A stretch of DNA of 64,000 nt. Source: Citreicella sp. C3M06. GTDB lineage: Bacteria > Pseudomonadota > Alphaproteobacteria > Rhodobacterales > Rhodobacteraceae. The notes under the pieces were generated by a model that was given only the letters and a program-made list of their open reading frames with translations, was not told the DNA's origin and searched no databases. The position numbers and the translations under genes were made by a program. Of the stretch, positions 50,971-64,000 are shown piece after piece. The stretch lies in the NCBI RefSeq assembly GCF_018860705.1, contig NZ_JAHKQA010000047.1:62001-126000 (forward strand). Direction: 5' to 3'. How positions within the stretch are numbered: the first letter of the stretch is position 1; the number at the start of each line of letters is the position of its first letter.

Positions 50971-51022
50971 GACCAAGAGAGGGGCGCCAAGCCCCCGCAA
51001 CCCCCAATCTGGAGACCCAAAG

Positions 51023-52057
51023 ATGAAGACCTTCCTGCTTTCCCTGTCCGTTGCCGCGCTAAGCGCGACCGGCGCCTTGGCGGATGAGATCCGCGTGCTG
51101 AACTGGCAGGGCTACGGCACCGATCAGGACTTTGCCACCAAGCCCTTCGAAGAGGCCACCGGCCACACCGTCGTTCATGAATATTTCAACTCTGAACAGG
51201 AGATGCTGACCAAGCTGCGCACCAATCCCGGCGCCTATGACGTGGTGATGATCAACGCGACCTTCACCGAGCAGGCCGCCGCCGAGGGGCTGATTGCCCC
51301 CATCGACACCGCCGCCCTGCCGAACTTCGATGGCATCCCCGCCAAATTTGCCGATGACCCGATGCAGAAGATCGACGGCGCGCAATATGGCGTGCCCTGG
51401 ACATGGGGGCTGACCTCTTTTGCGATCAACGCCCAATCGGTCGACGAGGCCCCGAGCAGCATCGAGGCGCTGTGGGATCCCAAATACGAAGGCCATGTCT
51501 CGATCCGCGATGACGCCATCGAGGCGATGCAGATCGGGGCGCTGGCCACCGGTCAGGACATCAACGACATCAAGGATATCGAGGCGGTCAAGGACAAGCT
51601 GGCGGCGCTGTTGCCCAACCTGCTGACCTTTTGGGGCAGCGAGAACGACTGGAACCAGTCCATGGCCTCGGGGCAGCTTGATATTGCGACCTACTGGTCC
51701 GGCTCGGCAGTGCGCTCGATCGCGCAGGGGCTGGAGATCGAATTCGTCATCCCCGAGGAAGGCGCCATCGGCTGGCTGGATGCCCTGTCCATTCCCGCCA
51801 CTTCCGAGCACAAGGCGGCGGGCGAAGCCTTCATCAACTGGATGATCGACCCGGAATTCTACGTCGCGTGGGACAAGGCAGGTTCGCCGGCCCCCGCCAA
51901 TGCCAAGGCCGCCGCAGCGCTGCCCGAAGAGGCGTTCAACCGCCGTGTGCTGGGCGATCCCGAGGTGCTGGCCCGCGTCCAGTTTCAGGTTCCTGTCGAG
52001 GATGCCACCAAGGAGCAGTATCTGGAAATCTGGCAGACGCTGAAGGCGCGCCAGTAA
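51023..52057 (+). CDS. Spermidine/putrescine-type ABC substrate-binding protein (PotD-like)
   Basis: A 344-residue periplasmic binding protein. The signal peptide covers about 1-20 (cleavage after T-G-A-L-A). The mature start is I-R-V-L-N-W-Q-G-Y-G, as in PotD. Y-D-V-V-M-I-N-A-T-F, I-D-G-A-Q-Y-G-V-P-W-T-W-G and S-G-S-A-V-R-S-I-A-Q-G are family landmarks. The canonical polyamine-binding acidic residues could not be confirmed, and the neighbouring kinase and glycohydrolase point to a nucleoside or N-glycoside rather than a polyamine. A GGAGA ribosome-binding site precedes ATG at 51023. Confidence 0.9.
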   Translation: MKTFLLSLSVAALSATGALADEIRVLNWQGYGTDQDFATKPFEEATGHTVVHEYFNSEQEMLTKLRTNPGAYDVVMINATFTEQAAAEGLIAPIDTAALPNFDGIPAKFADDPMQKIDGAQYGVPWTWGLTSFAINAQSVDEAPSSIEALWDPKYEGHVSIRDDAIEAMQIGALATGQDINDIKDIEAVKDKLAALLPNLLTFWGSENDWNQSMASGQLDIATYWSGSAVRSIAQGLEIEFVIPEEGAIGWLDALSIPATSEHKAAGEAFINWMIDPEFYVAWDKAGSPAPANAKAAAALPEEAFNRRVLGDPEVLARVQFQVPVEDATKEQYLEIWQTLKARQ

Positions 52058-52080
52058 CGCAGGCGCCTGCCAAAGCGCTG

Positions 52081-52103
52081 GGTCCGGGCGTTCAGCCCGG
52101 GCC
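52081..52103 (+). other. Intercistronic stem-loop after the PotD-like gene
   Basis: A stem of nine pairs including one G-T (52081-52089 with 52095-52103, loop GTTCA) lies in the 84-base gap before the permease gene. There is no T run. It is the same arrangement as after dctP, tctC and phnD. Confidence 0.6.
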
Positions 52104-52141
52104 CGCCCCACTAGACCGCCCCGCAATGCAAGGAGATCGGC

Positions 52142-53005
52142 ATGACCGAACTCACCGCTTCGGCGGACCGCAGACGCCTGTTCGCGCTTTTGTCGCCGGC
52201 CTATCTCTGGCTGACGCTGGCGGTGTTCCTGCCGCTGTCCGCCATGCTGTTCTTCAGCTTCCTGACGGATCTGCCGCAGGACAACCCGGACTGGAGCGCC
52301 ACGTTCGACAATTATGCGCGCTTTCTGACCAATCCGACCTATGCCATCCTGATGTGGAAATCGGTGAAGCTGGGGCTGATGGTCACGCTTGGCTGTGTGC
52401 TGATCGGCTATCCCTGCGCGCTGGTGCTGGCGCGCACCATCAAGGGCCGGGCGCGCGAGACGCTGTTCCTGCTGGTGATCCTGCCGTTCTGGTCCAACTC
52501 GCTGGTGCGGATCTTTTCTTGGGCCATCGTGCTGCGGGGCAACGGCATGCTGGAACACGCGCTGAACTGGCTGCTGCCCTTCGAGCTGCGGCTCGAGCTG
52601 ATGTTCACCACCCATGCCGTGGTGATCGGGCTGATTCACAGCTACCTGCCCTATGTCATCCTGACCTCGTATCTGGCGCTTCAGGCCATCGACGACGATC
52701 TGGTGGATGCCGCCCGGTCCATGGGGGCGTCGAAGCTGACGATCCTGCGGCGCATCCTGCTGCCGCTGTCGCTGCCGGGGCTGCTGGCGGGCGCCGTTCT
52801 GGTGTTTGTGCCGGTGGTTGGCTCTTTCATGGAGCCGCGCATCCTTGGCGGGCGCATGGGCACCTATTACGGCACGCTGATCGAGGATCAGTTCGTTTCG
52901 GTCTACAACTGGCCGCTTGGCGCGGCGCTGTCCTTTACCCTGCTGGCGGTGGTTCTGCTGATCCTTGCCTGTGCCAGCCCCATCCTTGGAAAGGCCCGGA
53001 CATGA
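52142..53005 (+). CDS. ABC transporter permease, PotB type
   Basis: A 287-residue permease with six hydrophobic segments. The EAA loop is L-V-D-A-A-R-S-M-G-A-S-K-L-T-I-L-R-R-I-L-L-P-L-S-L-P-G. S-F-M-E-P-R-I-L-G-G-R-M-G and I-E-D-Q-F are the PotB landmarks. It overlaps the next permease by four bases. Confidence 0.92.
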   Translation: MTELTASADRRRLFALLSPAYLWLTLAVFLPLSAMLFFSFLTDLPQDNPDWSATFDNYARFLTNPTYAILMWKSVKLGLMVTLGCVLIGYPCALVLARTIKGRARETLFLLVILPFWSNSLVRIFSWAIVLRGNGMLEHALNWLLPFELRLELMFTTHAVVIGLIHSYLPYVILTSYLALQAIDDDLVDAARSMGASKLTILRRILLPLSLPGLLAGAVLVFVPVVGSFMEPRILGGRMGTYYGTLIEDQFVSVYNWPLGAALSFTLLAVVLLILACASPILGKART

Positions 53006-53787
53006 GCCGCTCTCTGCTGCCGCTGATCGGGAAACTCTGGCTTTTCGCGATCCTGTTCTTTCTCTACGCGCCGATCCTTGTGATGGCGGCGATGTCGTTC
53101 AACGCCTCGCCGTTCTACCAGCTGCCCTTTGAACTCTCGACCCGCTGGTATCAGCAGATGGCGGGCAATGGGCAGATCCTCAGCGCGGCGCTGCGTTCTG
53201 TCGGTATTGCCATGGTCACGACGCTGGTGGCGACCGCCCTTGGCACGGCGGCGTCGATTGGCCTGTTCCGCTATGATTTTGCCGGCAAGAAGGTGCTGAT
53301 GGTGCTGCTGTTCCCGCCGATCGCCATTCCGTGGCTGATCACCGGCACCGCCATGCTGATCTTTTTCTTTGCCATCGGCATCGGGCGCGGCACGCCTGCG
53401 GTGATCATCGGCCATGTCGCGCTAGCGCTGCCCTATGTCATCGTCACCGTCACCGCCCGGCTGTCGAGCTTTGACATCACGCTGGAAGAGGCGGCGCGCT
53501 CGATGGGCGCAAACAGCTGGACGGTGCTGCGCCGGGTGACGCTGCCGTGGATCGCGCCGGGCGTGGTGGCGGGGGGGCTGTTTGCCTTTGCCGTCAGTTT
53601 CGATCAGTTCGTGGTCAGCTACTTTCTGTCGGAACCGGGCGACAGCACGCTGCCGGTGCTGATCTACACCGCCATCCGCAAGGGGTTCACCCCCGAGATC
53701 AACGCGATCTCGACCATCATCATCGCCGTCTCGATGCTGATCATGTTCCTTGCCACCCGCTATTCCAGATTCGCAGGAGACCGCTGA
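53002..53787 (+). CDS. ABC transporter permease, PotC type
   Basis: A 261-residue permease. The EAA loop is L-E-E-A-A-R-S-M-G-A-N-S-W-T-V-L-R-R-V-T-L-P-W-I-A-P-G, and F-A-V-S-F-D-Q-F-V-V-S-Y-F-L-S is the PotC hallmark. ATG at 53002 lies in an ATGA overlap; the frame is open far upstream but only as a shadow of earlier genes. The stop shares one base with the ATPase start. Confidence 0.92.
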   Translation: MSRSLLPLIGKLWLFAILFFLYAPILVMAAMSFNASPFYQLPFELSTRWYQQMAGNGQILSAALRSVGIAMVTTLVATALGTAASIGLFRYDFAGKKVLMVLLFPPIAIPWLITGTAMLIFFFAIGIGRGTPAVIIGHVALALPYVIVTVTARLSSFDITLEEAARSMGANSWTVLRRVTLPWIAPGVVAGGLFAFAVSFDQFVVSYFLSEPGDSTLPVLIYTAIRKGFTPEINAISTIIIAVSMLIMFLATRYSRFAGDR

Positions 53788-54797
53788 TGTCCGCCGTCGA
53801 CGTACAGAATGTGACCAAGAGGTTTGGCCAGACCGTGGCGCTGGACGATGTGTCCATCAGCTTTGAGGATGGCGGGTTCTTTGCCCTTCTGGGCCCCTCG
53901 GGGTCGGGCAAGACCACGCTGCTGCGCACCATCGCGGGGTTTCACTTTGCCGAAACGGGGGCGATCCGCATCGGTGATCGCAACGTCGAAAACGTGCCGG
54001 TGGAAAAGCGCGACATCGGCATGATGTTCCAGAACTACGCCCTGTTTCCCAACATGAGCGTGGCCGACAACGTCGGTTTTGGCCTGCGGGTGCGCAAGGT
54101 TGCCGCCGCCGAGGAAAGACGCCGCATCGCCGAGGCGCTGGAGCTGGTGCAGCTGGGCGCCATGGCCGAGCGCCGCCCAAGCCAGCTTTCGGGCGGGCAG
54201 CGGCAGCGGGTGGCGCTGGCGCGGGCCATCGTGACCAACCCCAAGGTGCTGCTGCTGGACGAGCCGCTTTCGGCGCTCGACAAGACCCTGCGCGTGGATA
54301 TGCAGATCGAACTGAAACGCATCCAGCGCGAGATCGGCATCACCACGATCTTTGTGACCCATGATCAGGAAGAGGCGCTGACCCTGTCGGACCGCATCGG
54401 CATCCTGAAGGACGGGCGCATCGTTCAGGTCGGCCCGCCGCGAGAGGTCTATGACAAACCGGTCGACGCTTTCACCGCCGGTTTTCTGGGCGATGCCAAC
54501 TGGGTTCCCGAAAGCTGGCTTTCGGCGCTGAGGCTGCCGCAGCCTGCCAACGGCCACAGCTTTGCGGTGCGGCCAGAAGCGCTGTCGATGGCTCAGGCGC
54601 GGCTTGATGGCATGAACGCCGTGGCGGGGCGGCTGACGCAGCGGGTCTTTGCCGGGGCCATGGCCACCTGCCTGATCGAGGTCGAGGGCCAGAAGTGGAA
54701 GCTGATCGCCCGCGATCGCGACATCCCCGAAATCACCGGCGATGGCGCGGTCTGGCTGAACTGGCGCCCCGAAGACACGATGGCGGTGCGGGCATGA
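53787..54797 (+). CDS. ABC transporter ATP-binding protein, PotA type
   Basis: A 336-residue ATPase. Walker A is GPSGSGKTT, the signature LSGGQRQRV, Walker B LLLDEPLSALD and the switch VTHDQEEAL. The C-terminal TOBE-like part (about 240-336) is a little shorter than in polyamine PotA. GCAGGAGA lies just before ATG at 53787. It completes the importer encoded by the three preceding genes. Confidence 0.93.
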   Translation: MSAVDVQNVTKRFGQTVALDDVSISFEDGGFFALLGPSGSGKTTLLRTIAGFHFAETGAIRIGDRNVENVPVEKRDIGMMFQNYALFPNMSVADNVGFGLRVRKVAAAEERRRIAEALELVQLGAMAERRPSQLSGGQRQRVALARAIVTNPKVLLLDEPLSALDKTLRVDMQIELKRIQREIGITTIFVTHDQEEALTLSDRIGILKDGRIVQVGPPREVYDKPVDAFTAGFLGDANWVPESWLSALRLPQPANGHSFAVRPEALSMAQARLDGMNAVAGRLTQRVFAGAMATCLIEVEGQKWKLIARDRDIPEITGDGAVWLNWRPEDTMAVRA

Positions 54798-55327
54798 ACG
54801 ACTGGCTGCTGGTGATCGACATGCAGCCGGGCTTTGGCGCGGCTGAAAGCCCGTGGTGCACGCCGGGCTATGAGCGCTGCGCCGAGCGCATCGGGCAGAT
54901 GCTGCCACTGTTCGAAGACCGGGTGCTGTTCACCCGCTTCGTGCCGCCAGAGTCCCCCACCGGCGCATGGCGCGCTTATTACGCGCAATGGGAGTTTGCG
55001 GTTGCGCCCGGATCGGACTGGCTGTGGCAGGTCGATGGGCGCTGGCAGGGCTATCGCTCGATCGCCAGCCATCGTTTCGCCAAGTGGCGCGAGGCGGAAC
55101 AGGTTCTGCCCGCCGATGCCAGCCTGACCCTGTGCGGCGTCGCCACCGATTGCTGCGTGCTGGGCACCGCTGTCGAGGCGGTGGACGCCGGGCGCAACCT
55201 GCGGCTGGTCGAGGATGCCTGCGCCGCCGGGACCGAGGCCTTGCACCGCGCGGCAGTGGCGGTGATGGCGGATCGCGCCCCGATGTGCCGTGTGGTGTCG
55301 ACCGCGCAAGTTCTGGCGGGCGCTTAG
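54794..55327 (+). CDS. Isochorismatase-family cysteine hydrolase
   Basis: A 177-residue hydrolase of the nicotinamidase / isochorismatase fold. The catalytic triad is visible as Asp9 in V-I-D-M-Q, Lys97 in F-A-K-W and the nucleophile Cys121 in A-T-D-C-C-V. This fold hydrolyses amides or related bonds such as nicotinamide, ureidoacrylate or N-carbamoyl compounds. It overlaps the ATPase gene by four bases and is the last gene of the operon, so it should act on the imported compound or a fragment of it. Nicotinamide is one attractive candidate, given the ribose-cleaving enzyme upstream. Confidence 0.9.
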   Translation: MNDWLLVIDMQPGFGAAESPWCTPGYERCAERIGQMLPLFEDRVLFTRFVPPESPTGAWRAYYAQWEFAVAPGSDWLWQVDGRWQGYRSIASHRFAKWREAEQVLPADASLTLCGVATDCCVLGTAVEAVDAGRNLRLVEDACAAGTEALHRAAVAVMADRAPMCRVVSTAQVLAGA

Positions 55328-58190: not shown

Positions 58191-58619
58191 TCACAGCAAC
58201 GAGGTTGTGACCTCGATATTGCCGCTGACAGCGTTGGAATAGGGGCAGATGGCATGTCCGCGCTCGACGATCTTTTCGCCGGTGGCGCGCTCGACACCGG
58301 GCAGGGTGACCGACAGCGCGACCGTCAGCCCAAAGCCGCCGTCGCTGCGCGGCCCGATGCCGACTTTCGCCTCGACCCGGGCGTCCTGCGGGACGGTCCC
58401 GAGCTTTTCGCTGCGCGCCGCGAAATGCATCGCGCTGAGGAAGCAGGCCGCGTAGCCGGTTGCGAACAATTGCTCCGGATTGTGGCCTGCGCCCGATCCG
58501 CCGAGCTCCTTGGGGCTGGTCATCGTTACGGTCAGGGTTCCCGACGTCAGCCCGGCGAGACCATTGCGTCCGCCGCCCGTTGCATAGGCTTCTGTCCAGT
58601 ATTTCACATCGGTGGTCAT
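58191..58619 (-). CDS. ohr: Organic hydroperoxide resistance protein Ohr
   Basis: A 142-residue OsmC/Ohr-family thiol peroxidase that reduces organic hydroperoxides in the cytoplasm. The peroxidatic Cys59 lies in G-Y-A-A-C-F-L-S-A-M, and the resolving Cys125 in H-A-I-C-P-Y-S-N-A-V-S-G-N, the Ohr rather than OsmC pattern. ATG at 58619 gives the normal N-terminus. It is divergent from an ohrR-type gene, the classical arrangement. Confidence 0.95.
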   Translation of the reverse strand: MTTDVKYWTEAYATGGGRNGLAGLTSGTLTVTMTSPKELGGSGAGHNPEQLFATGYAACFLSAMHFAARSEKLGTVPQDARVEAKVGIGPRSDGGFGLTVALSVTLPGVERATGEKIVERGHAICPYSNAVSGNIEVTTSLL

Positions 58620-58678
58620 GGGGTATCCTTCGTGGTCGATTAGATTGTGTGCGATACATATGGCGCGCCCTTGAGAGC

Positions 58679-58700
58679 ATTCAATAGCTTGCAAATGAAT
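58679..58700 (+). promoter_or_regulatory. Candidate OhrR operator
   Basis: ATTCA-N12-TGAAT with TTGCAA inside lies in the 105-base gap between ohr and ohrR. The AT-rich symmetric sequence fits a MarR-family site controlling both genes. Confidence 0.45.
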
Positions 58701-58724
58701 AGCGCGCGATATAAATTGCCCACC

Positions 58725-59159
58725 ATGACCAGACCCATTGATGACATGCTCTGCCACGCGCTTTATTCGGCCAGCCTTGCCATGCAGCACGCCTATCGCG
58801 ATATGCTGGCGCCGCTGGGTCTGACCTATCCTCAGTTTCTGGTCATGACAGTGCTCTGGACCGGCCCGGAATCTCCGACGGTCAAAGAGATCGGCGCGCA
58901 GGTTCATCTTGAATCCAGCACGCTGACCCCGCTTCTCAAGCGGCTGGAGAAAGCCGGACTGCTCAGCCGCCAGCGCGATACGGTGGATGAACGGCAGGTG
59001 CGCATCGCCCTGACCCCCGCCGGACGCGCGCTAGAGGCCCGTGCCGAAGGGGTGACCCGCTGCCTTGAGGATCGGTTGAGCGGGCAGTCTGACGATTTGC
59101 GCCAGACACGGGATGTGCTGCTGCGACTGGCCGGGCATCTGCGCGCCCTGGACAGCTGA
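58725..59159 (+). CDS. ohrR: MarR-family peroxide-sensing regulator OhrR
   Basis: A 144-residue MarR-family repressor. [15 protein letters not shown] places the redox-sensing Cys10 in the conserved N-terminal helix. The winged helix reads [25 protein letters not shown] with the wing [10 protein letters not shown]. Oxidation of Cys10 by organic peroxide should release DNA and raise ohr expression. ATG at 58725 was chosen over ATGs at 58647 and 58695, since those overlap the operator. Confidence 0.93.
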
Positions 59160-59303: not shown

Positions 59304-59699
59304 CTACCACTGTTCCAGCAACGCACGCAGAAGATCGCCGCGGCTGACCTGCCCGACAAGCTTGCCGTCGCGCAGCACCGGAAACCGGCGGAACTCGCTG
59401 GCGAGGAACCGCTCGGCGGCGGCCACCAGATCGAGATCGGCGTCGAGCGTCACGGGATCCTTCGTCATGTAACGCGCGACCCGCCCGCCCCATTCCTGAT
59501 GATAGGCGCCATGCAAGGCGGCGCGCAGGCAATCCTTCGTGGACAGCACCCCGATGAGGCGTTCCTTGGCGTCCACCACGGGCGCGCCAGAAATTCGGTG
59601 TTCCAGCAGGGTCTTCATCGCATGCAGGATTTCCAGATCCGGCCCGAGCAGGATGAGATCGCGCGTCATGTAATCTGCAATGCGTGGCCGCTTGGTCAT
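59304..59699 (-). CDS. Small protein with paired CBS domains
   Basis: A 131-residue protein made of two CBS domains (about 10-65 and 73-130). Each has the D-Y-M-T-R-D / R-Y-M-T-K-D start and the G-V-L-S-T-K-D and G-Q-V-S-R-G-D-L ends. Such pairs bind adenine nucleotides such as AMP, ATP or NAD and report energy status. Its ATG overlaps the nqrM stop by four bases (ATGA), so it is translationally linked to the Nqr operon, a good reason to think that it senses or tunes respiration. The N-terminus of a longer open frame is a shadow of nqrM. Confidence 0.9.
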   Translation of the reverse strand: MTKRPRIADYMTRDLILLGPDLEILHAMKTLLEHRISGAPVVDAKERLIGVLSTKDCLRAALHGAYHQEWGGRVARYMTKDPVTLDADLDLVAAAERFLASEFRRFPVLRDGKLVGQVSRGDLLRALLEQW

Positions 59700-59869
59700 G
59701 GCTGATCGCCCCTTTTGGTGCGGTTCGGGCAGGCCGCGCAATCCGCGCCCGCAATGCAGGACAGCCCGCCGCAAGACCCTTTGATCGGCGCGCGGCCAAA
59801 GATCGCTCCGATGCCAAGCCCGGCGAGGGCGCAGAGCAGCACGCCAAGGGTGATCAGGAACTCTGCCAT
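59696..59869 (-). CDS. nqrM: NqrM, maturation factor for the Na+-NQR complex
   Basis: A 57-residue protein missed by length filters. It has one N-terminal membrane segment (F-L-I-T-L-G-V-L-L-C-A-L-A-G-L-G-I-G) then Cys33, Cys38, Cys44 and Cys47 in C-x4-C-x5-C-x2-C. NqrM is required to insert the iron centre held by NqrD and NqrE in Na+-NQR. The gene follows nqrF by 74 bases and precedes the CBS gene with an overlap. Presence of nqrM argues that this is an NQR-type rather than an Rnf-type complex. Confidence 0.93.
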   Translation of the reverse strand: MAEFLITLGVLLCALAGLGIGAIFGRAPIKGSCGGLSCIAGADCAACPNRTKRGDQP

Positions 59870-59943: not shown

Positions 59944-61167
59944 TCAGGCTCCGAAATCGTCGTTGAAGATCCGCTCGCGATCAACGCCCAGCTCGTCGAG
60001 CATCGACAGCACCGCCTTGATCATCATCGGCGGGCCGCACAGGTAGTAGTCGCAGTCATGCGGGGCGGGATGCGCGGCCAGCCCACCGCGCAGCGCCACC
60101 TCGTGGATAAAGCCGGTTTCGCCGTGCCAGTCGTCATCCGGCGCCGGATCGGACAGCGCCACGGTCCAGCGGAAATTGGGGAATTCTGCCTGCAACCGCG
60201 AGAATTCCTCGTCATAGAACAGGTCCACGCGGCTGCGCGCGCCGTACCAGAAGCTGATCTTGCGGGTGCTGCGTTGGCGTTCGAGCTGGTCCGAGATGAT
60301 CGCGCGCAGCGGTGCCATGCCGACGCCGCCGCCGATCAGGACCATCTCGCGCGTGCTGTCCTGCGCCGCGAAACTGCCGAACGGGCCGGTCACGCTGACA
60401 GGATCGCCGGGACGACGCCCGAACAGCCATGACGACACGACGCCCGGCAAGGCGTCCGGCGCCCCCGGCGGTGGCAGGGCCAGCCGGATCAGCAGCACGA
60501 TGTGACCGGCATCCGCTGCGGCGTGGTTCGCGATGGAATAGGCGCGTGACACACCGCCCGGGCCTTGCGCGCGCAGCGCATCAAGGCCCTGCTGATCCCA
60601 CGCGGCGCGATGCTCGGGCGCGATGTCATAGTCGCTGAAGGCCAGATCATAGGCCGGGGCCTCGACCTGCACAAAGGCACCGGGGGTGAAGGTGAATGGC
60701 GCATCGCCCATCGGCGCCAGCACGATCTCGCGGATGATCGGGGCCACCGTGCGGCTGGAAACGACCCTGCACGCCCAGCTGCGGGCGCTCAGCATGGTTT
60801 CGGGCAGGGTCACGGCCAGATCGGCGCGAAGCGTTGTCTGGCAGGCCAGCCGCAGTCCGGAGGCAAGATCGGCGCGCGACAGCAGGGCGGCCTCGGTCGG
60901 CAGGGCAGGGCGGCGGCCTTCGTCGATCCGCACCCGGCACTGCCCGCAGGTTCCGCCCCCGCCACAGGCCGCAGGCACGGCGATGCCGCCGTCGGCCAGA
61001 GCCGTCAGAAGCCGCTCGCCGCTGCGCGCGCCAATGTCCATGCGATCATTGATCCGAATGGTAACCGGGGCCGAGGGCAACAGAAACGCCCGTGCCAGCA
61101 AGATGACGCAGGCCACGATCAGCACGATGGCGACAAAGACCGCGCTGCCAAGAGCCACTTCGCTCAT
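59944..61167 (-). CDS. nqrF: Na+-translocating NADH:quinone reductase subunit F
   Basis: A 407-residue NADH-oxidising subunit. An N-terminal helix is followed by a [2Fe-2S] domain with Cys68, Cys74, Cys77 and Cys109 ([11 protein letters not shown] and A-C-Q-T-T). The FAD motif is R-A-Y-S-I-A-N, the NADH motif [10 protein letters not shown] and the C-terminal Y-Y-L-C-G-P-P-M-M. All electron-carrier sites expected of NqrF are present. It overlaps nqrE by four bases. Confidence 0.97.
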
Positions 61168-61766
61168 GGCTGGCCCAGCCCGGCAAAGGCCGAGAACCCC
61201 ATCGACATCAGGCCGGTGACGATGAAGGCGATGCCCAATCCGCGCAGACCTTCGGGAATATCGGCATAGCGCAGCCGTTCCCGGATCGCGGCAAAGGCGA
61301 TGATGGCCAGCGCCCAGCCGATGCCGCTGCCCAGACCATAGATCACGCTTTGCGGCAGATCGTAGCGCCGGTCGACCATGAACAGGCTGCCCCCGAGGAT
61401 GGCGCAGTTCACCGTGATCAGCAGCAGGAAGATCCCGAGGCTGCGGTGCAACCCCGGTGCGAACCGATCCAGCGTCATTTCAAGGATCTGCACGATGGCG
61501 GCGATGACGCTGATGAAACAGATCAGTTTGAGATAGCTCAGATCGACCTCTGGCAATCCCGCCCAGGCCCAGGCGCCCTCGATCAGCAGGCCGCGAAAGA
61601 TCAGGTGGTTCACCGGAACCGTGACCCCCTGCACCACGATCATCGCCAGCCCGAGCCCCAACGCGGTATCAACCCGCTTGGACACCGCCAGAAAGGTGCA
61701 GATGCCCAGAAAGAACGACAGTGCAAGGTTCTCCTGAAAGACGGATCGCAGGAACAGCTCGCTCAT
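61164..61766 (-). CDS. nqrE: Na+-NQR subunit E
   Basis: A 200-residue, six-helix membrane subunit. Cys23 ([10 protein letters not shown]) and Cys121 (T-V-N-C-A-I-L-G-G) are the conserved ligands of the iron centre shared with NqrD. Length is normal. It overlaps its neighbours by four bases on both sides. Confidence 0.97.
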
Positions 61767-62425
61767 GGCCGATCCCCGCCCGACCGCTCGCGAAGCGGAA
61801 ATTCATCGGGTTCGACCTGCTCGGGGCGGCGGGTCCGGATCGCCCAGATCAGCAGGCCGATGATGAAAAACGCGCTGGGGGCAAGCAGCATGAACCCAAG
61901 CGGCTGAAACCAGCCACCGCTTGAGGCCAGTGGCAGCAGCTGCACCCCAAACAGCGCGCCCGCGCCAAGCCCCTCGCGGATCGCGGCAACAAGCATCAGC
62001 ACAAGGCTGTAGCCAAGCCCGTTGCCAAGCCCGTCCAGAACGCTGGGCCAGACCGGGTTGCGCATGGCAAAGGTTTCGGCCCGGCCCAGAACGATGCAAT
62101 TGGTCACGATCAGCCCGACAAAGACCGACAGTCTTTGGCTCATCTCGAAGGCATAGGCGCGCAGGATCTGGTCGGCGACGATGACCAGAGAGGCAATGAT
62201 GGTGATCTGCACCACCAGCCGGATCGCATTGGGCAGATGATGGCGCACAAGGCTGATGAGCGCGCTGGCGGTAGTCAGCACAACGGTCAGCGCAAGGCTC
62301 ATGGTCAGGGCGGTGGCCATCGAGGTGGTCACGGCGAGCGCCGAGCAGATCCCGAGGATCTGCAACGTGATCGGGTTGCCGTCGATCAGCGGCGCGGTGA
62401 GGTGATGCAGGGCGCGCTTGCTCAT
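61763..62425 (-). CDS. nqrD: Na+-NQR subunit D
   Basis: A 220-residue, six-helix membrane subunit homologous to NqrE in inverted topology. Iron-centre ligands Cys27 ([10 protein letters not shown]) and Cys110 ([10 protein letters not shown]) are in place. It overlaps nqrC and nqrE by four bases each. Confidence 0.97.
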
Positions 62426-63231
62426 CTTTCTTCTCCCGAACGCAGGGCGGCAAGGAACGGGCCAAAGCCATCGGGGCCGAGCCAGAACTGCACAAGCCGC
62501 GCCACGCCCATGCTCGAGCGCGTGGCGCCGGAAATACCGTCGATCTCGCGCAGGCCCGTGGCCCCGCCGCGCACCACGGCGATGACGATCTCTCCCGAGG
62601 CGTCCACGGCCTGTTTGCCTGACCAGAGCGCCTGCCAGCCCGGATCGGTGATCCGCGCGCCCAGCCCCGGCGTTTCGCCCTGTTCATAGATGCTGAGGCC
62701 CGCGATGGTGGTCAGATCGGCCGCTAGGGCAAGATAGGCGCGGATCGTCGATTGATAGCCGGCCCCGTAGACCGGCAGCACCACCAGCGCCAGACCATCC
62801 CGCCCGCGCAGCAGATAGGCCGGGGCAAGGTCCGGGCGGCGTGCGATCCCGGCGATGTCCTGTTCGGGGCTCAGCGCCGTTATCCGGGCGGCATCGCTCT
62901 GCGCGGCGAGGAAATCGTAGCTGTGCGGATCGGCGTCTTGGCGGATCGTGCCGCTTGCCAGATCGACCAGAACGGCCTCCAGCGTTTCGGCCCCGGTCTC
63001 GCGCAGCAGATCGCCCAAGCCCGGCAGCGCAGCGATCATTCCCGCCAGCTTTGCCTCGCGCGCCGCGTCAAGATGGGCCTGCTGGCGTGGTTCGAGCAGC
63101 ACCGAGGTCACCGAGACGCCAAGCGCCGAGATCAGCGCCACGAGGAACGCAACGCCCAGCGTCTTGCCCCGGCTGTCATTGGGCAGCGCCAGAAACCGGC
63201 GCCACAGGGAGAGAGGGGACCGCTCAGCCAT
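62422..63231 (-). CDS. nqrC: Na+-NQR subunit C
   Basis: A 269-residue FMN-carrying subunit. An N-terminal helix anchors the periplasmic domain. [14 protein letters not shown] and I-S-G-A-T-R-S-S are the family motifs; Thr237 of S-G-A-T is the FMN-phosphothreonine site, encoded at 62521-62532. Residues N-terminal to it match NqrC in order and length. It overlaps nqrB by eight bases. Confidence 0.97.
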
Positions 63232-64000
63232 GTCGCTGCCTGCGCGCGCGTCGCCGCACGTTGTCCCAGATCACCCCCTGATCGATCAGCGACGCAAAAA
63301 TCCCCGCCAGCAGCGCGGCAAAGACCACCGAGGACAGCGCGCCGCCGCCAGCCGTTTCCAGCAGCGCGACCAAGGCCCCCGCCAGCGCTCCATAGACCCA
63401 GCGCCCAGCATTCGTGCAGGCAGCCGCCACCGGATCGCCGATCAGAAACACCAGCCCAAGGATCAGCGTCGCCCCCGGCAGGGCGGGCCAGCCCGGCTGC
63501 AGCAGCTGCAACGCGGCCATGGCCAGCGCAAACCCGGCAACCACCCGCCACGACAGGACCCGCGCGAGCAGCAGCGCCGCGCCGCCTGCCAGCGCGGCAA
63601 TGGCGCTCGCGGGGCCGGGGGCGGCGCCTGCGCTCACCGGGAAAGAGAACAACGCAAAGGCCAGAGCAACCGCCGCCGGGCTGAGAAAGCCGCGCCCGCG
63701 CCCGCCAAAGACCAGATCGCCCATCACCAGCCCGAAGGACAGCGCCAGCCCCTGTTGCCAGAGCGGCAGCGCCTCTGGAACCAGAACCGCAAAGATCGCG
63801 GCCGTCACGAGGCCATCCCAGCCCGTCCAGCGCCGCCTGATCCGGGCAAAGACCAGATGCCAGAACGTTGCCAGCCCCAGCCCGAGCGCCAGAAAAACCA
63901 GCCGCGCCGGCCCCTGCTGCAGGATCGTCGCGACGAGCGGGGCGGAGACGGCCACAAGGGTGACAAGCGCCTCGCTGCCGCTCCAGAGGCGGGGGGCATC
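63224..64000 (-). CDS. nqrB: NqrB-like subunit, compact variant without the FMN-threonine segment (5' end outside window)
   Basis: The frame is open to the right edge and shows 258 residues. It aligns with NqrB along L-V-P-E-A-L-P-L-W-Q-Q-G, F-G-G-R-G-R-G-F-L-S-P-A, the I-G-D-P-V-A-A-A-C-T-N-A-G-R-W-V-Y-G-A-L-A-G segment and the C-terminal A-G-I-F-A-S-L-I-D. Between F-S-F-P-V and A-A-L-A-G-G, where typical NqrB carries roughly 60 residues including G-F-S-G-A-T (covalent FMN on Thr), only about a dozen remain and no S-G-A-T occurs. Other loops are shortened too. All membrane helices seem present. It may be a bona fide compact NqrB or a RnfD-like replacement. Confidence 0.88.
   Translation of the reverse strand, partial: DAPRLWSGSEALVTLVAVSAPLVATILQQGPARLVFLALGLGLATFWHLVFARIRRRWTGWDGLVTAAIFAVLVPEALPLWQQGLALSFGLVMGDLVFGGRGRGFLSPAAVALAFALFSFPVSAGAAPGPASAIAALAGGAALLLARVLSWRVVAGFALAMAALQLLQPGWPALPGATLILGLVFLIGDPVAAACTNAGRWVYGALAGALVALLETAGGGALSSVVFAALLAGIFASLIDQGVIWDNVRRRARRQRHG

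Follow-up and report, generated by a model that had tools for sequence, protein, structure and literature searches.

The closest described systems to the operon analysed here, which encodes a shortened NqrB and lies in a window of 64,000 nucleotides (C79:62001-126000) of the 5.01 Mb genome of Citreicella sp. C3M06, are the Na+-translocating NADH:quinone oxidoreductase (Na+-NQR) of Vibrio cholerae, the two-subunit Nqr/Rnf-like complexes that are reportedly the subject of Meheust 2021 and Huang 2024, and the Rnf complexes associated with multihaem cytochromes. According to the accessible parts of PMC10643135, the flavin mononucleotide (FMN) of V. cholerae NqrB lies 5.7 Å from that of NqrC, and the quinone contacts in NqrB include Phe159, Gly141 and Leu138; in the available text of PMC9325719 and PMC10643135 the N-terminal stretch of NqrB helps to hold the quinone, and in that of PMC9325719 it binds korormicin and aurachin, forming an inhibitor cavity. 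Two-subunit complexes that combine an NqrC-like FMN protein with an NqrB/RnfD-like subunit, the latter likewise devoid of the flavinylated threonine, have been proposed to export electrons and are already known (PMC8238504, PMC11334425, in the portions available), as are Rnf operons with multihaem cytochromes, a c-type multihaem cytochrome being part of the operon or complex in Methanosarcina (MmcA) and Desulfovibrio (available portions of PMC12174285 and PMC4287179).

The window's operon differs from each of these systems. Compared with the Na+-NQR of V. cholerae, with which it shares the NqrB fold, its NqrB lacks both the FMN loop and the N-terminal stretch, and a pentahaem cytochrome gene is attached. 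The two-subunit complexes have an NqrB fused to an NAD-binding domain, with no more than two subunits apparent, whereas here a complete Nqr set with NqrD and NqrE is present and PF03116 was the sole domain on NqrB. The Rnf complexes of Methanosarcina and Desulfovibrio are ferredoxin-linked, unlike the short Nqr, and their cytochromes resemble the one found here by description only; proteins fitting the NqrF and NqrA models were encoded instead of RnfB and RnfC. No description of a complete Nqr with an FMN-less short NqrB and a pentahaem cytochrome was found in open papers, subscription journals lying mostly outside the search. We propose, with a rough probability of 0.58, that this variant Na+-NQR moves electrons from NADH to the pentahaem c-type cytochrome, instead of via FMN-NqrB and riboflavin to ubiquinone.

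An earlier note on this DNA had claimed that NqrB lost its FMN-threonine motif through an internal deletion and that several of its loops were shortened, and both claims were borne out. Short NqrB residues 45-127 aligned without gaps to V. cholerae NqrB 139-221, and residues 124-256 to 266-411, leaving V. cholerae residues 222-265, which include the DGYSGAT motif, with no counterpart. Reading the gene past base 64000 added only Met-Ser and no SGAT. The FMN loop was missing from all the aligned short NqrBs (n = 65/65), in which the loop between transmembrane helices 5 and 6 spanned 9-17 residues (median 10), compared with 52-60 (median 54) for 22 full-length canonical proteins; the loop between helices 7 and 8 measured 7-21 (median 11) against 22-23 (median 22), and the stretch before helix 1, which holds the inhibitor cavity and quinone region in V. 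cholerae, 0-14 (median 6) against 45-51 (median 50). A [ST]G[AS]T string occurred in one of 78 short NqrBs (74 distinct), at residue 222 of L081, away from the FMN place. The canonical motif itself is not always SGAT, since L158 and L162 read DGYAGAT; the frame of L156, left out of the canonical loop measurement, reads DGFSGAT. The decayed locus L037 was left out of alignments and motif counts, the NqrBs of L052 and L119 are outside the 78-row set, and five loci are identical records in two collections.

An AlphaFold model from the 65 short NqrBs had ten helices and a mean predicted local distance difference test (pLDDT) score of 93, and its best solved matches in Foldseek were V. cholerae NqrB (template modelling score 0.74-0.76 on the query) and RnfD (0.69-0.80). 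The window part of the protein, two residues short, reached 113.1 of the 349.9 bits of the NCBIfam NqrB model TIGR01937. The place of the quinone contact Phe159 was occupied by Gly in 44 of the 65 proteins. Judged from its sequence, the short NqrB has lost the covalent-FMN loop and part of the likely quinone site.

The operon is on the minus strand and, read past base 64000, runs pentahaem cytochrome c, nqrA, short nqrB, nqrC, nqrD, nqrE, nqrF, nqrM and a CBS protein, with gene names backed by Pfam and NCBIfam; all six subunits NqrA-F are thus in one operon. Two decisive parts lie outside the window, the N-terminal end of NqrB (in part) and the cytochrome gene, 1.3 kb beyond the window end. 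The features are as follows:

63224..64000 plus 6 bases past the window, where the start codon ends, minus strand: short nqrB, 260 amino acids in full.
63614..63643, minus strand: turn between transmembrane helices 5 and 6 (NqrB residues 122-131), the place of the missing FMN-threonine loop, from the alignment and the AlphaFold model.
L002:9273-10436, outside the window, minus strand: pentahaem cytochrome gene, upstream of nqrA (Pfam).
L002:8003-9259, just outside the window, minus strand: nqrA, upstream of nqrB with an ATGA overlap, 418 amino acids (Pfam).
62422..63231, minus strand: nqrC, 269 amino acids, with the DGISGAT FMN-threonine motif kept (Thr237).
61763..62425, minus strand: nqrD, 220 amino acids, in which the two cluster cysteines and the counterpart of Asp133 are retained.
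61164..61766, minus strand: nqrE, 200 amino acids, in which the two cluster cysteines and the counterpart of Glu95 are retained.
59944..61167, minus strand: nqrF, 407 amino acids, with Fer2, FAD-binding and NAD-binding domains.
59696..59869, minus strand: nqrM, maturation factor, 57 amino acids (PF04400, 26.3 bits, cut-off 22).
59304..59699, minus strand: CBS-domain protein, 131 amino acids, found downstream of nqrF in relatives' clusters too.

The cytochrome encoded beside the window carries five CxxCH motifs and a Cytochrome_C7 match, and its c-type motifs suggest that it is periplasmic. In 48 aligned proteins of the family, chosen as rows with five motifs, the five CxxCH were invariant and six further histidines were conserved in at least 46. 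An intact five-motif gene was found near nqrA in 34 of the 38 first-examined short-Nqr clusters; of the remaining four, one is the decayed L037, L041 has a fragment only, and L047 and L048 have none on the examined stretch. In contrast, none of the 23 canonical nqr loci had a member of the family in the 14-18 kb around each. An order-wide sample of 390 genomes was searched with the short protein and 127 matched; 49 of the 390 had a short NqrB among the matches listed, recognised as a one-piece match along the short form, while the other matches listed were split in two within frames some 400 residues long. A profile of 48 cytochromes matched 48 of these 49 genomes, two of them through fragments or a broken gene. 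At a strict cut of E 1e-20 the cytochrome was present in 64 of the 390 genomes, namely 47/49 with a short NqrB and 17/341 of the others (Fisher's exact test, 1e-43, a guide only, as related genomes are not independent), revealing a specific and conserved gene partnership between the short Nqr and the pentahaem cytochrome. A class-wide search for the cytochrome gave 3/385 genomes, one of them weak.

The likeness of this cytochrome to NrfA and OcwA lies in the five haems, in a profile match to Shewanella NrfA that is weak (whole-sequence value 5.9e-6, with no single stretch better than 0.06 and nine-haem cytochromes scoring nearly as well) and in weak fold matches to OcwA (9.5e-3) and NrfA (0.39). 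An identity as NrfA was rejected, given that NrfA has a CxxCK catalytic haem motif and all five motifs here are CxxCH; the window's cytochrome had no NrfA model match either. Its role could be that of a carrier or of a terminal reductase.

Full-length canonical NqrB was detected by a PF03116 search in only three of the 49 genomes (G000, G341 and G343), whereas neither canonical NqrB nor RnfD of full length turned up with PF03116 in the other 46, again among the matches listed; G023 had one extra weak PF03116 match. A tree of NqrD, NqrE and NqrF split 42 short-type clusters (41 distinct) from 23 canonical ones with support 1.0 (FastTree, midpoint rooting, no outgroup). A phylum-wide search with the short NqrB gave mainly two-piece matches to canonical NqrB. 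The earlier note had suggested one flavin fewer, a different electron route or an unrecognised Nqr subtype; the missing FMN site, its lineage-wide occurrence and the separate branch fit this proposal, which is supported in part, while the actual route is a matter of interpretation.

The cofactor sites on the NADH side of the complex were retained, as the same note had claimed for NqrC, NqrD, NqrE, NqrF and NqrM. Thr237 of NqrC aligned with V. cholerae Thr225, and [DE]..[ST]GAT was kept in 77 of 80 loci (72 of 75 distinct proteins), the other three reading DGISGAS. The 2Fe-2S cysteines of NqrD and NqrE were kept in the window's proteins; among the relatives, 17 rows varied at the second NqrE cysteine (VQC in the four inspected), and the NqrD motif of L142 reads SNC. 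Counterparts of the carboxylates implicated in Na+ uptake (B-Asp397, D-Asp133 and E-Glu95) were also kept in the window's proteins, Asp397 in all 65 short NqrBs. With the sites for NADH, NqrF, the NqrD/E cluster and FMN-NqrC all left as they were, electrons have a way into the periplasm. They would pass from NADH to the flavin adenine dinucleotide (FAD) and 2Fe-2S centre of NqrF, to the 2Fe-2S cluster between NqrD and NqrE, and to the periplasmic FMN on NqrC, from which the pentahaem cytochrome, the best candidate to replace FMN-NqrB as next carrier, would accept them. NqrB would stay as a ten-helix scaffold, possibly still riboflavin-binding, and outward Na+ transport may still be driven at the NqrD/E step; Na+ coupling is probably retained.

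A scan of named genomes gave at least 438 cytochrome relatives, of which the best 80 by likeness to the window's cytochrome were used, so that the shares lean to its context. Marine isolates with the short Nqr include Yoonia maricola (L098) and Limimaricola soesokkakensis (L094). These loci were mostly from Rhodobacteraceae, and also from Hoeflea, Devosia, Nitratireductor, Thalassospiraceae, Granulosicoccus and Billgrantia. Among them, 43 had nqr genes, 22 had a ferric-reductase-type reductase (Ferric_reduct, FAD-binding and NAD-binding domains in representatives) and 15 had neither by the rule applied; none of the best 80 had both. Three of the 15 were cut by contig ends (L082 and L110, nqr-type; L149, reductase-type), L103 and L105 had ApbE and a PepSY-type protein, L133 had a NapC/NirT protein, and L113 is the record of G352, whose short nqr is on another contig. 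PepSY-flavodoxin-reductase domains were shown for L103, which has an additional ferric-reductase-type protein another 5 kb away. Among the 17 genomes of the order that had the cytochrome and no short Nqr, a ferric-reductase type was near the cytochrome in 14 (domains checked on representatives from other loci; six of these records are also six of the 22) and ApbE with a PepSY-type protein in one; the remaining two (L188 and L190) had a large multihaem protein with Cytochrome_cB beside the pentahaem cytochrome, and the large protein of L188 passed the NCBIfam octahaem tetrathionate-reductase-family score and was followed by a cytochrome b561. In the cytochrome tree, from which rows without five motifs were left out, the nqr and reductase types differed by at least two changes.

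Ferric-reductase and PepSY-flavodoxin types normally send electrons outwards, to the periplasm, and the representatives of both combined a domain that binds NAD(P)H with a transmembrane part. That the alternative partners are of this exporting kind is the main argument for the same role in the short Nqr. The wider proposal, for which the odds seem to us even, is a respiratory pump that works without quinone, in which a complete Nqr has been remodelled into an NADH:periplasmic pentahaem cytochrome oxidoreductase. One new cytochrome family would then be fed by at least three membrane exporters that can replace one another, of the short Nqr, ferric-reductase and PepSY-flavodoxin types.

That the window's operon is degenerate or mis-assembled and without function is hardly credible. 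Its closest relative in the order sample (L037, G023:C37) is decayed, with nqrB running into nqrC, the cytochrome in two pieces and nqrF interrupted or shortened, but the same architecture, open frames and conserved residues were found across many genera, on a separate branch. A sequencing or assembly deletion was rejected because the deletion is common to many genomes, and a motif hidden outside the window because the outside part is Met-Ser only; a recent loss inside a canonical operon was rejected by the tree, where canonical and short NqrD+E+F are separate. The host has a second set, a complete canonical nqrABCDEF operon on another contig (L036) encoding a 399-aa NqrB with TGAT; help from such a second NqrB is unlikely, given that it sits in its own operon and that none of full length was found in most of the short-NqrB genomes. 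The short Nqr is neither an error nor decay.

Apart from the decayed relative, several observations weigh against electron transfer to the cytochrome, and they are best read with the two other explanations. One of these, unlikely in our view, is that the complex has remained an NADH:quinone reductase and works with one flavin fewer; in it FMN-NqrC would pass electrons directly to riboflavin in the trimmed NqrB and quinone would be reduced at a remodelled site, the cytochrome serving another purpose in the same pathway. The riboflavin ligands are partly kept in the short NqrBs (Asp346 in 62/65, Thr162 in 46/65, Asn203 in 24/65 and Asn200 in 19/65; in the window's protein the Thr and Asp are kept and Gly and Ser replace the two Asn), which leaves room for electron flow through the NqrB branch. 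Retention of NqrA, which carries no cofactor, in 41 of the 43 nqr-type loci would be odd if quinone no longer mattered, and together with the partly kept riboflavin site it is our chief doubt. In favour of transfer to the cytochrome, two Thalassospiraceae metagenome-assembled genomes (L142 and L148) have no nqrA on the examined stretch but do have nqrBCDEF and the cytochrome, which suggests that NqrA is dispensable in them. An AlphaFold model of a two-subunit Nqr/Rnf-like complex, also without the NqrB/RnfD threonine, led to a proposed direct contact between an NqrC-type FMN and a non-covalent flavin (PMC11334425, in its available part). The partnership is also imperfect, as G251 has a short Nqr without a cytochrome match, the cytochrome of G289 is a piece of 64 positions only, and in G352 the cytochrome and the short nqr are on different contigs. 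Against a quinone reductase stand the loss of the N-terminal quinone and inhibitor stretch, the Gly at the place of Phe159, and the near-constant cytochrome partner, which elsewhere is paired with NAD(P)H-binding transmembrane reductases.

Sequence does not fix the direction of the electrons, and the contact between NqrC and the cytochrome is a presumed one. In a reverse run, periplasmic electrons would enter through the pentahaem cytochrome and reach NqrC, and the Na+ gradient would drive NAD+ reduction (reverse electron transport). Frames of the sodium/hydrogen-exchanger family near 13 of the 43 nqr-type loci, as compared with 1/22 ferric-reductase-type and 1/15 other loci among the best 80, could agree with this, although they also count for the main reading. 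In a few further genomes, members of the family stand next to octahaem or NapC-type cytochromes, and these show links to periplasmic redox chemistry that could agree with a reverse run too. The alternative partners are, however, NAD(P)H reductases that normally act as outward senders, and we consider the reverse run less probable still than quinone reduction. The proposed transfer from NADH to the cytochrome is the reading we retain.

As to gene neighbourhoods, an exchanger frame stood directly behind the cytochrome gene in the nqr-type loci L081, L083, L090, L091, L108 and L115 (PF00999 shown for L081), and L142 has a sodium/hydrogen exchanger (PF00999); in L148 a small multihaem frame upstream looks NapC/NirT-like. 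An apbE match was present on the examined stretch in 37 of the 38 first-examined short-Nqr clusters, a difference from V. cholerae as is the CBS protein; none was in the window's cluster, but the genome has two apbE genes at other places, one of them sharing a contig with the canonical operon. The CBS protein closing the cluster has two CBS domains, here and in relatives, perhaps for nucleotide sensing. Elsewhere in the window, an OsmC-like frame is divergent from a MarR-like regulator frame (58191-59159), presumably an Ohr/OhrR-like pair, and a run of plus-strand frames (51000-54800) is taken by us for a polyamine-type ABC transporter.

There is disagreement over which part moves Na+, NqrB/RnfD or NqrDE/RnfAE. 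In the available parts of the sources, the Na+ path is placed in NqrB and coupled to the reduction of its FMN (PMC10643135), whereas no evidence was seen for RnfD as the Na+ path, which is placed in RnfA/E (PMC11889175). A natural Nqr without FMN-NqrB, but with NqrD/E and the carboxylates, opens this question to direct testing and, if our reading is true, would offer a natural experiment on whether NqrD/E alone suffice for Na+ pumping by Nqr. Marine Alphaproteobacteria would moreover have a new means of passing NADH electrons to the periplasm, and the uncharacterised pentahaem cytochrome would serve as a handle for finding the acceptor.
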